A stretch of 64,000 bases of DNA, from contig NZ_CP097463.1 in assembly GCF_027247405.1 (NCBI RefSeq), positions 3,782,001-3,846,000 of the forward strand. The letters run 5' to 3'. Positions 7-6,291 of the stretch are shown here, piece after piece (the stretch's first letter is position 1; every line of letters starts with the position of its first letter). This DNA is from Jatrophihabitans cynanchi (GTDB taxonomy: Bacteria > Actinomycetota > Actinomycetes > Mycobacteriales > Jatrophihabitantaceae). Below the pieces are notes generated by a model that saw only the letters and a list, made by a program, of their open reading frames with translations, was not told where the DNA came from and ran no database searches. The position numbers were made by a program, and so were the translations under genes.

Positions 7-999
7 ATGCTCGGCACCGGGTCGCAGATGGACACCGCACCACCGCCGGGCGGGATCGCCTGGCTGGACATCTCCGCGGAGACGTCCGACTCGTGGCCGG
101 TCCGCGCCCGCACGGGCCCGCTGGGGTTGCAGATCGCCCCGTTGAACCGAGGCCGTACCGCGTATTACTTCAAGGGCGCGCGGCTGCGTGGCACCCGGTG
201 CATGTGGTCGGCGTCCACCGTCAACGGCGCGTTGCTGACCCGCCCGTCCCGGGCGCCGCTGCCGCAGGGCGAGACGTCGGTGCACCTGCTGGTGCGGGCC
301 GAGTCGTCCGGTTCGGTATTCGACCCGGCGAGCACGCTGAACCGGGGCGTGCTCAAGGTGATCGACCCGGCGCAGGCCATCGAGGAGCAGTTCCACGCCA
401 ACTCGATCCTCTGCACGCTGAACGTGCACCAGCCGACCGTCGGTGTCGAGCCCGCGAGCGTCGCCGCGATGATCGGGCAGACGTTTCCGCTCAGCGCGTT
501 CCAGGCGACGCTGCTGCGTTCGGGAATCACGTTGCTGGTGGCCGGGACGGACGAGCTGGGCAGCGCGTCGAGCCTCGTCGGAGTCGACCGGTATCTCGGC
601 GCGCTGGCCGGGCTGCTGCTGCGCACCGCGGTCAACCGGCCCGCGGAGGGCACCGCCGTCGCCTCGGTGCGCACCCGCACCGAGGCGATCATCTACGAGC
701 AGGCGACGAACCCGGAGCTGACGCCCGCCGCGGTCGCCGCGCAGCTGAGCGTGTCGCTGCGCCAGCTGTACCGCGCGTTCAGTGGCGGCGAGAGCCCTGC
801 GGCGCTGATCCGCCGGCGGCGGCTGGAGCGGGCCGCCGAACTGCTCGCGGCGCGGCGGCCGATCGCGAACGTGGAGTCGGTCGCGCTCGAGTGCGGGTTC
901 GCCTCGGCGGAGTACTTCTCCCGGGCGTTCCGGCGCGAGTTCGGGCTCAGTCCGCGCGCGTACCGCTCGGCACACCGCGAGCTGCCGTCCGCCCGCTGA
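7..999 (+). CDS. AraC-family transcriptional regulator (5' end may lie outside window)
   Basis: The protein is a DNA-binding regulator of the AraC/XylS family. The last 100 residues hold the paired helix-turn-helix domain: a first HTH around AAVAAQLSVSLRQLYRAF and a second around VALECGFASAEYFSRAFRRE, followed by the family's closing FGLSPRAYR. The first ~200 residues fit an AraC-binding-like sensor domain, so an inducer is likely, but none can be named. The frame is open to base 1, so translation may start upstream of the window; ATG at 7 and ATG at 31 are the first internal candidates and neither has a clear ribosome binding site. The gene it controls is not visible; the next feature downstream is a tRNA. 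Confidence 0.85.
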   Translation: MLGTGSQMDTAPPPGGIAWLDISAETSDSWPVRARTGPLGLQIAPLNRGRTAYYFKGARLRGTRCMWSASTVNGALLTRPSRAPLPQGETSVHLLVRAESSGSVFDPASTLNRGVLKVIDPAQAIEEQFHANSILCTLNVHQPTVGVEPASVAAMIGQTFPLSAFQATLLRSGITLLVAGTDELGSASSLVGVDRYLGALAGLLLRTAVNRPAEGTAVASVRTRTEAIIYEQATNPELTPAAVAAQLSVSLRQLYRAFSGGESPAALIRRRRLERAAELLAARRPIANVESVALECGFASAEYFSRAFRREFGLSPRAYRSAHRELPSAR

Positions 1000-1122: not shown

Positions 1123-1199
1123 GGGGCGGTAGCTCAGCCGGTTAGAGCAGGGGACTCATAATCCCTGGGTCGTGGGTTCGAGTCCCACCCGCCCCACCA
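1123..1199 (+). tRNA. tRNA with CAU anticodon (Ile2 or elongator Met), CCA encoded
   Basis: The 77 bases fold as a full cloverleaf. The acceptor stem is GGGGCGG with CCGCCCC, the discriminator base is A, and CCA is encoded. The anticodon stem GGGGA/TCCCT closes the loop CTCATAA (anticodon CAT), and the T arm is GTGGG TTCGAGT CCCAC. The perfect acceptor stem argues against initiator tRNA-fMet. CAU could be elongator Met or the lysidine-modified Ile2; I cannot separate these by eye. Its 3' 36 bases recur at 3554-3589, so it looks like the attachment site of an integrated element. Confidence 0.95.
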
Positions 1200-1545
1200 C
1201 AGCAGCAAATACGAGGGTGTAGCGCGAGCCGAGCCATCGACGCGGTGCTTCGCCGTGCTCACCGTTGTGCGCGCCGACCGGCCGAGCCGACAACGTGACC
1301 GTCCTGCACCGCGATCCGCCGGGTCAGGTACGGGTAGCCGTGACCCGCGGTGATCGGATGCGTGCCCATCACCACGCACCACCCGCGTCGCGCGGCTACG
1401 TCCCACCGGCGAGCACCTCATCGAGTGGCCGGACGCTCAGCCGGCTCGACTCGGCGCGGTTAAGTTCGCCGAGATCGCAGCGGCCCTGCAACCGGGACAA
1501 CGTCGAGCCGAGAAGCGAGTTGCTGCGGCTTCGCGCGGGTGACCG

Positions 1546-1577
1546 ATGGTGTAACACCTGCCTCCATGGTGATACAC
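1546..1577 (+). promoter_or_regulatory. Putative vapBC operator: two ATGGTG-NN-ACAC repeats 20 bp apart
   Basis: ATGGTGTAACAC (1546-1557) and ATGGTGATACAC (1566-1577) are direct copies spaced exactly 20 bp, two helical turns. The first copy also contains the palindrome GGTGTAACACC. The second covers a possible -10 element (GATACACT) just ahead of the GTG start at 1586. The position suits autoregulation by the VapBC complex, as is known for this family; the binding itself is inferred. Confidence 0.45.
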
Positions 1578-1585
1578 TGCGGATT

Positions 1586-1855
1586 GTGCCCACTACTCGA
1601 CCGCGACATTTGATCACCGAGTCTGACGACCTGGCACGGGCGCTCGACGATGCGGCGCGGCGCTGGCCCGAGGACCGGCACAGTCGCGCCAAGCTGCTGG
1701 TACACCTCGCCGAAGAAGGGCACCGTGCGCTGATCGCCGGCTCGCAGCGGAAGCGGAGCCGACGCCTGGCCGCGATCCAGTCGACGAGCGGCGCGCTGAG
1801 CGGCACCTACGGACCGGATTACCTCAAGCAGCTGCGCGAGGACTGGCCCGAGTGA
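1586..1855 (+). CDS. VapB-like antitoxin
   Basis: An 89-residue protein encoded directly before, and overlapping by 4 bases, a PIN-domain toxin gene, so it is called the antitoxin mainly from context. It is rich in charged residues (ARALDDAARRWPEDRHSRAK) and ends YLKQLREDWPE, a tail typical of small antitoxins that wrap the toxin. The start chosen is GTG at 1586, because the paired operator-like repeats end just upstream and no Shine-Dalgarno is seen. This suggests a leaderless or nearly leaderless message. A longer open frame reaches back to 1265 but has no coding-like features. Confidence 0.7.
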   Translation: MPTTRPRHLITESDDLARALDDAARRWPEDRHSRAKLLVHLAEEGHRALIAGSQRKRSRRLAAIQSTSGALSGTYGPDYLKQLREDWPE

Positions 1856-2235
1856 TCGTGCTCGATGCCAGCGTGCTGATAGCGCACCTGGAGGGGGCCG
1901 ACGCCCACCACGATCGCGCCACCGCACTGCTCGCCGATGCCGTCGATCAGGCCTGGGGCATCAGTCCACTGACCCTGGCCCAAGTACTTGTCGGGCCGGC
2001 TCGCGCCGGCCGACTCGCGCCGGCGCAATCAGCGCTCCGAACGCTCGACGTCGTGACAGTCCCGCTCTCGGACGACGCACCGGTGCAGCTGGCGACTCTC
2101 CGGGCGACAACGGGGCTGCGCCTTCCGGACTGTTGCGTCCTGCTCGCGGCCGAAACCACGGCCGGCGACGTTGCCACCTTGGACGAGCGGCTGGCGATGT
2201 CCGCGTCCGAGCTCGGCTACGCCGTGCGATCCTGA
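1852..2235 (+). CDS. VapC-like PIN-domain toxin with a substituted catalytic residue
   Basis: A 127-residue PIN domain: MIVLDASVLIAHL carries the first metal-binding aspartate (D5), LPDCCVLLAAE the third acidic position, and VATLDERLA the fourth. PIN toxins are Mg2+-dependent ribonucleases that cleave tRNA or rRNA. The second acidic position, usually Glu in a SPLT-x-x-E-VLVGP context, reads SPLTLAQVLVGP here, so residue 44 is Gln. This could weaken or abolish activity. GTG start at 1852 overlaps the antitoxin stop, giving translational coupling. It sits in the tRNA-bounded element. Confidence 0.85.
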   Translation: MIVLDASVLIAHLEGADAHHDRATALLADAVDQAWGISPLTLAQVLVGPARAGRLAPAQSALRTLDVVTVPLSDDAPVQLATLRATTGLRLPDCCVLLAAETTAGDVATLDERLAMSASELGYAVRS

Positions 2236-2440
2236 CCGACGGCGCTCACGCCACCCGTCCACAGTCCTCCAGGTCCCATCTGCACGCTACGACCTCGCGC
2301 CTCGGCCGGGGCATCACCCGTAGCCGTGCCTGCCTTGTCGAGTCGAAGGCTGCCATCGTCCCTCCGTGTTCCTGTGGCGGCGGTGTGGTCGCGCGGCTAG
2401 GTTTCAGGCACTGGCAAGATCCACAAGGAGGGCGAGATCC

Positions 2441-3133
2441 ATGAAGTGTCGTGCTGTCGCGGTCGGAGCCATCCTCGCGAGCGGCCTCGGGCTGGTGGCG
2501 TGTTCGTCATCGGGTGGCGATCCGAGTCCGTCGTCGCCTGTCGCGAACCCGCCAACGTCGGTTGCGAGCCGGCAAAGCGTGGTCCCGACCGTACGAAGCA
2601 CAACTTCGGTCCACCCGCGCGACCTGAAGTCACAACTGCTTTCTGTCGCAGAGGTTCCGGTTGGCTGGGCCGTCGACAACTCCTCCGACAAGAGCGACGA
2701 CAGCGACGCCCCGCCCTGCTTCAAGCACGTGAAATCGACACTTCACACCTCGGACAGGGCCGAGGTGCGCTTCGTCAAGGGCACCGATCTGCCGACGCTG
2801 CAACAGTCGCTCGGCTACTTCGGCAGCAGCGCCGCCGGCACGTATCAGGCTGGTGCCGCCGTTATCAACAGCTGCAAGGACATATCGTTCACGAACGGCG
2901 GACACAGGATCTCCGGCTCGATCGGCGCGCTATCGTTCCCCAAGCTGGGACAGCAGTCGTCGGCCTGGCAGTTCGTTCTCTCGACGGAGGGCGTCACGTT
3001 CGGCATTGATGTAGTACTGGTGCAGAAGGGCTCGGAGCTGACAGAGCTGATCTACGCCGACATTGGCACTCCCGACATCGACGAGGCAACGTTGCTCGCA
3101 CGCAAGGCTGTCGCCAAGATGCCCGCGACGTAG
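2441..3133 (+). CDS. Secreted lipoprotein of unknown function
   Basis: A 230-residue protein with a clear lipoprotein signal: MKCRAV, a hydrophobic stretch, then the lipobox LVAC ending at Cys20. A Ser/Pro/Thr-rich linker follows (SSSGGDPSPSSPV...), as in actinobacterial lipoproteins anchored outside the membrane. The mature part (~170 residues, with two cysteines that could pair) resembles the sensor-type lipoprotein domains of actinobacteria, but I cannot name a family. ATG at 2441 has the strong ribosome binding site AAGGAGGG at 2425-2432; longer in-frame starts lack one. It stands alone between vapC and the decayed phd-doc, inside the tRNA-bounded element. Confidence 0.8.
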   Translation: MKCRAVAVGAILASGLGLVACSSSGGDPSPSSPVANPPTSVASRQSVVPTVRSTTSVHPRDLKSQLLSVAEVPVGWAVDNSSDKSDDSDAPPCFKHVKSTLHTSDRAEVRFVKGTDLPTLQQSLGYFGSSAAGTYQAGAAVINSCKDISFTNGGHRISGSIGALSFPKLGQQSSAWQFVLSTEGVTFGIDVVLVQKGSELTELIYADIGTPDIDEATLLARKAVAKMPAT

Positions 3134-3179
3134 GCGGTTGGCCGGCGCGCAGCGCGACCGGCGTACCGCGGGCCCGGGT

Positions 3180-3239
3180 GAGCGGTTCGACCAGGTGTCC
3201 GCTGAGGACGCCGAGTTACTTGACCGTCTTTCGAAGTGA
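3180..3239 (+). pseudogene. C-terminal tail of a Phd-like antitoxin (remnant)
   Basis: The frame ending at the TGA at 3237 reads GERFDQVSAEDAELLDRLSK, an acidic tail of the kind that ends Phd/YefM antitoxins. It stops 8 bases before the Doc-like remnant, the normal phd-doc arrangement. No antitoxin DNA-binding part can be found upstream, where the lipoprotein gene ends. The assignment rests mostly on the neighbouring Doc remnant. Confidence 0.35.
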
Positions 3240-3247
3240 CGCGGTAC

Positions 3248-3480
3248 GTGCAGTTCGTCGATCTGCTGCACCAGGCGGAGCGCGCTCAGTTCGTGATCCG
3301 CGATGCCGGACTGCTTGCCGCAGCAGTTGCGCGGCCGCACGCAGCCGCTTCGGTGCCGATGCCTATCCGACGGTGTGGCTGAAGGCTGCTGCGCGGTGCC
3401 AGTCGAGCGCCATCAATCAGAGCCTTGTTGACGGGAACACGCCCCTGGCGTGGTCGGCGACGCCGAACTGCGGGAGAGCC
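3248..3480 (+). pseudogene. Doc/Fic-family toxin, frameshifted and degraded
   Basis: Two frames together give a Doc-like protein. The first, from GTG 3248, reads VQFVDLLHQAE, VIRDAGLLAAAVARPHAAA. After a one-base deletion near 3347-3349 the second frame continues FGADAYPTVWLKAAARCQSS, INQSLVDGNTPLAW. Doc enzymes are Fic-fold kinases of EF-Tu with a core of H-x-[FL]-x-D-G-N-[KR]-R. Here the His is Gln and KR is TP, so the active site is gone as well as the frame. Homology fades after WSAT. It is clearly dead and marks decay of the element. Confidence 0.75.
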
Positions 3481-3541
3481 AGGAGATCCAGACCTATCTG
3501 GGTGTCGGGGCGAGTGTCCCGACCGCACCGGCGCGAGCGGA

Positions 3542-4957
3542 CTAGCCGCCTGATCCGTGGGTCCTGGGTTCGCGTCCCACCCGCCCCACGGCACGGTGAT
3601 CGCTCGGCCGCACGCGCGTCGGACGGTGCGCCTCGACGAGTTCGTGCAAGCCGGCCCTGATCTCGGCGAGCAGCCGGCCGGGGTCGGCGATCAGCGTGTC
3701 GTCGGTCAGCAGGCCCACCGTCAGCCCGCCGTCGTAACTGATGATCGCCACGCCGAGCCCCAGGTTGCCCGATTCCGGTGGCCAGCCGATGGTGCCGCGC
3801 ACCCTGCGACCGGCGAGCAATACCGGGTGCGGCGGGCCGGCGACGTTGGTGATGACCGCGGTCGCCTTGGTGGCGAACACGTCGACGAACGCGTGCTGCA
3901 CCGCATACGTCGTGTGCCCGGTCAGCTCGAGGATCTGGAACGCCACCAGCCCCTCGGCCGAGCTCTTGAGCCTGCTCGTACTGGCGATCACCCGTTCCAG
4001 CCGCGCCGACGGGTCGTCGATCGACAGCGGCAGGTCGAGGAACACGAGCCCGAAGCGGTTGCCCAGCTCGGCCGGCAGCGGCTCGTCGAGCGGGCGCAGG
4101 TTCACCGGCAGGATCGCGCGGATATCCGCGACCTTGCCGTCAGTGCGCGCCAGGTAGCTGCGCAGCCCGCCGCACACCGCGGTGAGCACCAGGTCGTTGA
4201 CAGTCGCGCCGGACGCGTGCGCAGCGTCCCGGACGCGCGAGAGCGAGAGCGGTTCGGTCCACCGGACCGACTTCTCGGTGCCGAGCCGCCCGCGCAGCGC
4301 CGTGTGCGCGTCCGGGCTCAAGGCGAGCAGCCGGGCCAGGGCGCGCGCTTCGGCGCCGGCCTGCGCGAGTTCCCCGAGCAGGTGCCCGGGATGCGTGCTG
4401 TCGTAGGCGACCTCGCCGATCAGCGTGCCGAGCAACGGCAGCCACCGGCCGTCCCGGGGTTTCTCGGCGAAGTTCACGCCGGCGAGCGCGGCCTCGCTCG
4501 GATCGTCGGTCAGTGACATGAGCACGCGTGAGAGCGCCACACCGTCGGCAATGCAGTGGTGGATGCGCGAGACGAGCGCACAGCCGTTGCCGCCATAGCC
4601 GTCGACGAAGTGCATCTCCCACAACGGGCGATCGTGCCGAAGCCGCCGGCCGGCCACCATGCTGACGAACTGCTGGAGCTCGCGGCGGCCACCGGGTTCG
4701 GGCAGCCGCGCGGTGTGCAGGTGCGCTTCGAGGTCGAACGCCTCCACGTCCTCCCACCACACCGACGTGGTGCGGTCGACGACGCGCTGGGTGAACCTCG
4801 GGTACCGGGCGAGCAGGCGGTCCCTGAGCACCTGCCGGACGGCGTTCCAATCGAGCTGCTCGTCGAACCACATCACCGACGTCACGATCAGTCGGTTGGT
4901 CCTGCGGTCCATGTGCAGCCAGGACGCATCCGGCCCGCTCATCGGGTGCAGGCTCAT
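3542..4957 (-). CDS. WS/DGAT-family acyltransferase (wax ester synthase/diacylglycerol acyltransferase), copy 1
   Basis: A 471-residue O-acyltransferase that joins acyl-CoA to a fatty alcohol or diacylglycerol, giving wax esters or storage triacylglycerol at the membrane/lipid-droplet surface. The active-site motif HHxxxDG is present as HHCIADG (residues 133-139), and PLWEMHFVDGYGG and an NVAGPPHPVLLAG block are family landmarks. Length is normal. It is translationally coupled to the upstream paralogue (TGATG overlap at 4955-4959). The last ~15 residues and the stop codon are encoded by the att-like tRNA copy, so the native C-terminus was probably replaced when the element inserted. Confidence 0.92.
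   Translation of the reverse strand: MSLHPMSGPDASWLHMDRRTNRLIVTSVMWFDEQLDWNAVRQVLRDRLLARYPRFTQRVVDRTTSVWWEDVEAFDLEAHLHTARLPEPGGRRELQQFVSMVAGRRLRHDRPLWEMHFVDGYGGNGCALVSRIHHCIADGVALSRVLMSLTDDPSEAALAGVNFAEKPRDGRWLPLLGTLIGEVAYDSTHPGHLLGELAQAGAEARALARLLALSPDAHTALRGRLGTEKSVRWTEPLSLSRVRDAAHASGATVNDLVLTAVCGGLRSYLARTDGKVADIRAILPVNLRPLDEPLPAELGNRFGLVFLDLPLSIDDPSARLERVIASTSRLKSSAEGLVAFQILELTGHTTYAVQHAFVDVFATKATAVITNVAGPPHPVLLAGRRVRGTIGWPPESGNLGLGVAIISYDGGLTVGLLTDDTLIADPGRLLAEIRAGLHELVEAHRPTRVRPSDHRAVGRVGREPRTHGSGG
3554..3589 (+). repeat. tRNA 3'-end duplicate (attR-like)
   Basis: 36 bases match the 3' end of the CAU tRNA (1162-1197) with three substitutions. The copy spans the variable region, the T arm and the 3' acceptor strand, but has no 5' half, so it is not a tRNA gene. 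It lies at the far end of the accessory segment, in direct orientation, as an attR should. It also encodes, on the other strand, the last residues of the WS/DGAT gene. Confidence 0.8.
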
Positions 4958-6291
4958 CAGTGCGCTTCCGTAACCTCGCGGGCGGCCTTGAGGAGGTCAC
5001 CCAGCCCGGCGTCGAGAGCGCGCACGAACGCGTCCGCGTCCGGCACGGAGTTCCGGTCGCACGTCACGCCGAACATCAGCCGGCCGGCGTACGAGGTGAC
5101 GGCCACGCCGATCCGGATGCGATCGGCGATGGGCACGTACGGGAACAGCGCGACCATGCGCCGGCCCAGCAGTCGCTGTTCGAGCGGCGGCCCGGGCACG
5201 TTGGTGGTGACGGTCGTCAGCACGCGGTGCGGTACGCGCAGCACGGCCTTGACCAGGATGCTGACCAGCAGGGCCGGCATGTGCGTGGCGAGCGAGAGCG
5301 TGGCCTGACCGGCTTCGGACTCGTGGGAGTGCTTCACCTCGCGGGTCCGGACGACGACCGCGCCGTACGCCGCGGCCGGGTCGTGGAAGTCGACGGGTAA
5401 CTCGACCACCAGCGCCGACACCGCGTTCTCCACGCCCGTCTTGGGCGCGACCGCGACAGGCACCAGGCAGCGAACCGCGTGCGGCGCCGCCACTTCGTCG
5501 CGGCCGATGAGCAGTTCGCGGAACCCGCGGGTCACCATGGCGAGCACCACGTCGTTCCGGGTTCCGCCGAGGGCGGCGCGCACCGCGTCGACGTCGGCGA
5601 GGTCGGCCGAGGTGGTGCGGTAGCGCCGCGCCACCCCGAGTTCACCGGTGACCGACGACGCGGTGAACGGGCGGACGGCGCGCAGGTAACCCATCCCACC
5701 GCGGATGACGCCGGCAGCGCGCTGCACGGTGCGCCGCGGTTCCAGCACGGCAACCGTGATGGCGTGCACGAACTCGCGGACCTCGCCCACAGCTGACGTC
5801 CGCTCGGCCGGGTGACGCACCGGAAGATCCACGTCGTCCAGGAAGGCGGCGAACACCTCCATCCCGCCCATGCCGTCGACCATGCTGTGGTGCATCTTGA
5901 GCACGAGGGCCCACTGGCCGCCGGCAAGACCCTGGACGACCCACACCTCCCACAGCGGACGGGCCTGGTCGAGGCGGTAGCTCATGATCTGACCGACGGC
6001 ACTGTTGAGCTGTTCCGGCGTGCCCGGGTTCGGGATCGTCGCCCAGTGCAGGTGATACGTCAGGTCGAAGTCCCGGTCGTCCGACCACCGCGGCCTGGTG
6101 AGGCCGAACGGCGTGCCGCGCATCCTCTGCCTCAGGCGCGGCAGCGAGCCGAGGCGTTCGAGATAGCGGTCGCGCAGTTCGTCGGCGGACGGGACGGGGC
6201 CGTCGAAGACCGCGATACCGCCGATGTGCAGCGCCACGTGCTCGTCCTCGAGATCCCAGAACTCGGCATCCAACAGGCCCATGCGTTCCAT
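4957..6291 (-). CDS. WS/DGAT-family acyltransferase, copy 2
   Basis: A second 444-residue WS/DGAT enzyme with the catalytic HHSMVDG (residues 134-140), RPLWEVWVVQGL and NVPGPP motifs. Start at 6291 (MERMGLLDAEFWDLED) is chosen because GGAGGAG lies 7 bases upstream and the family begins at this point; the open frame runs to 6402 without conserved sequence. It is diverged from copy 1 and placed first in a two-gene operon, a common arrangement in oil-storing actinobacteria. The two may differ in preference for alcohol or diacylglycerol acceptors; sequence alone does not say. Confidence 0.92.
   Translation of the reverse strand: MERMGLLDAEFWDLEDEHVALHIGGIAVFDGPVPSADELRDRYLERLGSLPRLRQRMRGTPFGLTRPRWSDDRDFDLTYHLHWATIPNPGTPEQLNSAVGQIMSYRLDQARPLWEVWVVQGLAGGQWALVLKMHHSMVDGMGGMEVFAAFLDDVDLPVRHPAERTSAVGEVREFVHAITVAVLEPRRTVQRAAGVIRGGMGYLRAVRPFTASSVTGELGVARRYRTTSADLADVDAVRAALGGTRNDVVLAMVTRGFRELLIGRDEVAAPHAVRCLVPVAVAPKTGVENAVSALVVELPVDFHDPAAAYGAVVVRTREVKHSHESEAGQATLSLATHMPALLVSILVKAVLRVPHRVLTTVTTNVPGPPLEQRLLGRRMVALFPYVPIADRIRIGVAVTSYAGRLMFGVTCDRNSVPDADAFVRALDAGLGDLLKAAREVTEAH

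Follow-up and report, generated by a model that had tools for sequence, protein, structure and literature searches.

Downstream of a CAU tRNA gene in the window, by which we mean the whole 64-kb stretch of DNA analysed here (all coordinates are positions within it; the genome is a single contig of 4.5 Mb), a second copy of the tRNA 3′ half is found, and the question raised by this locus is what the 2.4 kb between the two copies represents. Comparison of the sequence with that of related bacteria indicates, with a probability of about 90%, an integrase-less relic of a tRNA-integrated element, in other words a CIME-like remnant. The earlier note on this DNA had already suggested a relic with an attR and no integrase, and this suggestion is upheld both by the anatomy of the locus and by 13 other genomes, in which this tRNA presents the same arrangement. 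The features of the locus are listed in Table 1.

Table 1. Features of the CAU tRNA locus and its flanks
Feature	Position	Strand	Basis
AraC-type regulator, left flank; adjoins the tRNA in G007 too	7–999	+	Pfam; synteny
tRNA gene, CAU anticodon; integration target, restored at attL	1123–1199	+	ARAGORN
attL copy of the common core, from the anticodon loop up to the 3′ end of the tRNA	1155–1197	+	Boundary from the relatives' attR copies
Debris without recognisable gene; site of the integrase gene in six relatives	1200–1585		Filters-off search
vapB-like antitoxin gene	1586–1855	+	60% to protein upstream of vapC, Mycobacterium avium plasmid
vapC toxin gene, PIN domain	1852–2235	+	Pfam PIN, E 1.1e-12; alignments
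Open gene, lipoprotein-like protein of 230 aa	2441–3133	+	No family match; distant relatives in G014 and G008
Antitoxin scrap, C-terminus of Doc antitoxin	3180–3239	+	Ending as in the antitoxin of the intact Doc pair, same genome
doc pseudogene in two frames	3236–3474	+	3236–3352 and 3340–3474 in different frames
WS/DGAT gene, right flank; tail reads through attR	3542–4957	-	TIGR02946, residues 6–443 of 471
attR, displaced tRNA 3′ half; 34/37 over 3553–3589, diverged loop at 3547–3553	3547–3589	+	

ARAGORN labels the tRNA as Met (anticodon CAT), and it is either an elongator Met or a CAU isoleucine tRNA. Its bases 39–75 (1161–1197) are repeated in direct orientation within attR with three mismatches; the recurrence of the 3′ 36 bases at 3554–3589 (33/36), reported in the earlier note, is the same match. 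No comparable match to the tRNA 3′ half arose in 100 shuffles of the window. Furthermore, a search of the whole 4.5-Mb genome returned, besides the tRNA itself, this segment as the sole copy (E 1.4e-8) and no third att copy. When the alignment is carried on to the first base of the anticodon loop, 37 of 43 positions agree (33/36 in the tRNA 3′ half, 4/7 in the loop), and the sequence to the left of the attR loop agrees with the 5′ half of the tRNA at 9 of 32 positions, which is the level of chance. One of the three substitutions turns TTCGAG of the T loop into TTCGCG and thus breaks a conserved sequence, as would be expected for DNA without selection as a tRNA. An open frame at 1134–1421 on the minus strand runs antisense to the tRNA and ends in WDSNPRPRDYESPALTG; tRNA-antisense open frames with the ending WDSNPRPRDYESPALTG are a known kind of spurious frame.

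The relatives sample comprised 61 genomes including this one, a small set with partly fragmented assemblies in which a fragment located on a different contig would escape notice. In 14 of these 61 genomes, this one included, a 3′ fragment of the CAU tRNA lies downstream of it on the same strand (G000, G003, G008, G015, G017, G018, G031, G033, G034, G036, G038, G041, G047 and G056). The distance from tRNA to fragment in the 13 relatives of the order is 2–18 kb, except in one, where it is 35–101 kb. Scoring of 13 attR copies from 12 genomes gave 7/7 in the loop for nine, and in every copy agreement falls to the level of chance on the 5′ side of the loop. Since most of the 13 relatives have fragments whose identity begins at the anticodon loop or inside it, the CAU tRNA is, on this comparative evidence, a recurrent integration hotspot in the order. 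The tRNA itself is present nearly everywhere among the matches listed for 299 genomes of the order.

Inspection of the hotspot revealed an intact tyrosine integrase gene directly after the tRNA in G018, G031, G033, G036, G041 and G056. These integrases fall into one group of about 300 aa (G018, G031, G033 and G056; 55%–63% identical) and another of about 420 aa (G036 and G041; 48%). At the corresponding position, G014, G019 and G003 have broken pieces of the 300-aa type and G038 has a scrap, and in G002 a piece lies at the end of a contig; just after the tRNA, no intact integrase was found in eight of the 14 genomes that carry tRNA and fragment. No cargo related to that of the window island was found at the CAU tRNA in the relatives. 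As read from these loci, the relatives form a graded series of decay, from an intact element down to a scar, with the window island at the decayed end. Given how commonly elements land at the CAU tRNA in related bacteria, the island is an ordinary one.

Several further arrangements were seen at or around this site. Truncated pieces of hotspot-type integrases lie beyond attR in G015 (L056) and G018 (L062), at distances from the tRNA of about 12.4 and 11.7 kb, respectively, which suggests tandem insertions. G013 (L067) presents a mirror case, in which a 5′ fragment of the tRNA (bases 1–39) follows the AraC gene and the full tRNA is located 5 kb further; it could be a 5′-type insertion or an element with its own tRNA. 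On a 113-kb viral contig (IMGVR_UViG_3300037419_001822), positions 5591–5632 (L123) contain the tRNA 3′ half and the contig has no complete tRNA gene; this looks like an attP for the CAU tRNA site. The 11.6 kb of this contig that were read contain no integrase related to those of the hotspot.

Within the window, the interval between tRNA and attR contains no integrase, and no trace of one appeared even with filters off. The earlier note had envisaged a satellite served by an integrase in trans, to be checked by searching the genome for an integrase with a matching att core. The genome has 32 matches to the tyrosine recombinase family. In the regions compared, these resemble the hotspot integrases at 28%–33% over long stretches, an Xer-like level, and none is closer. 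With neither a third att copy nor a close integrase in the genome, integration in trans finds no support. Moreover, the attR loop of the island agrees at 4/7, as against 7/7 in the scored copies from relatives whose integrase is intact. There are tyrosine integrases that accept mismatches within the overlap (PMC10865867); with so diverged a loop, excision of the island would be unlikely. Beyond the window, the genome contains a cassette with three tandem tyrosine recombinases in five copies of equal score (L004–L008); this cassette is probably a transposon.

The DNA between the att sites has a G+C content of 67.3%, compared with 71.5% for the window, which places it at the third percentile of the window. 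A peptide-like stretch within the debris that follows the tRNA gave no match in a plasmid search. Next to it, a PIN-domain toxin gene is preceded by an overlapping antitoxin gene, as in VapBC pairs; both are open frames, and relatives of the pair reside on mycobacterial plasmids, with one relative of VapC on a viral contig. The vapB-like product has no Pfam match. In VapC, the acidic residues Asp5, Asp93 and Asp111 of the conserved PIN active site are present, and Gln44 replaces the Glu found in six aligned relatives (L083, L084, L085, L089, L122 and L124). This Glu is catalytic in PIN proteins. The toxin may thus be inactive. The lipoprotein-like protein matched nothing in family scans, and no relative of it was found in phage records or viral contigs. 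Read across its frameshift, the doc pseudogene yields a Fic/Doc family match (E 1.3e-4) that falls slightly below the curated cut-off, and its product is 62% identical to an intact Doc encoded at C1:1247674-1248075 of the same genome, with a tyrosine integrase gene some 1.4 kb away. This intact Doc pair (L098, C1:1247674-1250586) lies near an excisionase-like gene as well as the integrase gene, with no tRNA in the 10 kb read. The cargo described in the earlier note is thereby confirmed for VapBC, the lipoprotein-like gene and the decayed Doc; the label Phd was dropped for the scrap ahead of Doc, which resembles the antitoxin of the intact Doc pair and no recognised Phd. A defence-system search gave no match, and no promoter or terminator patterns were found. 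Two cargo genes are still open frames and not even a remnant of an integrase is left in the island; both are points against reading it as a fossil.

The flanks bear on what the site looked like before insertion. On the left, the gene order oxidoreductase, AraC, tRNA is common to the window and G007. On the right, the tail of the WS/DGAT gene that crosses attR lies beyond the conserved domain. Joining the two flanks at the loop makes the WS/DGAT frame stop inside the tRNA loop after 469 residues, and the overlap between this gene and attR is thus probably older than the island. None of the 60 relatives closely matches the DGAT side. At 6.3–7.6 kb beyond the tRNA lies a gene whose 44% relative in G012 adjoins the CAU tRNA and AraC; the right side therefore seems ancestral in part.

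Islander, a catalogue of tRNA-integrated genomic islands, contains 2083 islands of the anticodon-centred class (PMC4383910), into which the anatomy of the locus fits as an insertion by a tyrosine integrase at the anticodon loop; among mycobacteriophages this class is common as well (PMC10865867). Like Islander islands, the window island has an intact tRNA, a 3′ fragment downstream in the same orientation, an anticodon-centred crossover and a length of more than 2 kb, thus exceeding the minimum of 2 kb; unlike them, it has no integrase gene between tRNA and fragment, which Islander demands. Of the elements and phages that occupy tRNA genes in actinobacteria, the AICE Faln5456 is integrated in a tRNA-Met (PMC3218068) and Boilgate in a tRNA-Lys (PMC10865867). 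As in these elements, the common core spans the tRNA 3′ half and the tRNA is rebuilt at attL, whereas the window island has no integrase, conjugation or phage gene. None of the integrase, replication and FtsK-like transfer genes of an AICE is among the called genes, and family scans of these genes found no transfer genes. A cis-mobilizable element (CIME) has lost its integration and transfer genes and kept attL and attR (PMC5704250). The island likewise retains both att sites and is devoid of such genes, which it would once have possessed, judging from the relatives. It differs from a CIME in that its attR is diverged and a partner element is absent from the genome, and for these reasons mobilization in cis is unlikely.

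These observations enable us to propose a putative history of the island. Initially, an integrative element would have inserted into the CAU tRNA at the anticodon loop by means of a tyrosine integrase, an enzyme deduced from the relatives. As the anatomy and the relatives show, insertion restored the tRNA at attL and displaced the original 3′ half to the far end as attR. Afterwards, the integrase and most of the element were presumably lost, attR drifted, doc was frameshifted and VapC may have lost its activity. The island is most likely unable to excise and would be inherited as ordinary chromosomal DNA; the VapBC pair may have slowed its loss.

The island could instead be a still-mobile minimal satellite, with only a toxin–antitoxin pair and a lipoprotein between tRNA att sites, which borrows the integrases of elements using the CAU tRNA and is kept by VapBC. 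Integrase-less islands flanked by att sites are indeed frequent at this tRNA (G003, G015, G017, G034, G038 and G047 besides the window), and attR is intact in G017 (two copies), G038 and G047. Against this stand the diverged attR loop, the decayed doc, the lack of a further att copy or a close integrase in the genome, and relatives without related cargo at the site, and we regard such a satellite as very improbable. Should it be one, it would count as a very small satellite of integrative elements in an actinobacterium.

Equally slim are the odds of a larger or tandem insertion, of which the island would be the portion nearest the tRNA and which would have delivered the DGAT genes on the right of attR as well. 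A single tRNA is followed by several fragments in G017, G056 and G041, and the DGAT genes are not beside the CAU tRNA in relatives; however, the genome has no further att copy, and the gene with a counterpart in G012 makes the right side look partly ancestral. The absence of integrase and phage genes would also suit a chance match or a partial tRNA duplication with no mobile element involved. Both were rejected on the shuffles, the uniqueness of the copy in the genome and the arrangement in relatives, where 13 other genomes repeat the same tRNA half with identical strand and side, and six of them have an integrase between tRNA and copy; this account is the hardest of all to credit. The relic of a tRNA-integrated element is thus our preferred reading.

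In summary, the island matters little alone, and it is the comparison that reveals how integration at the CAU tRNA has recurred within the order. Islands like the eight of 14 without an intact integrase gene after the tRNA are missing from catalogues in which an integrase is mandatory.
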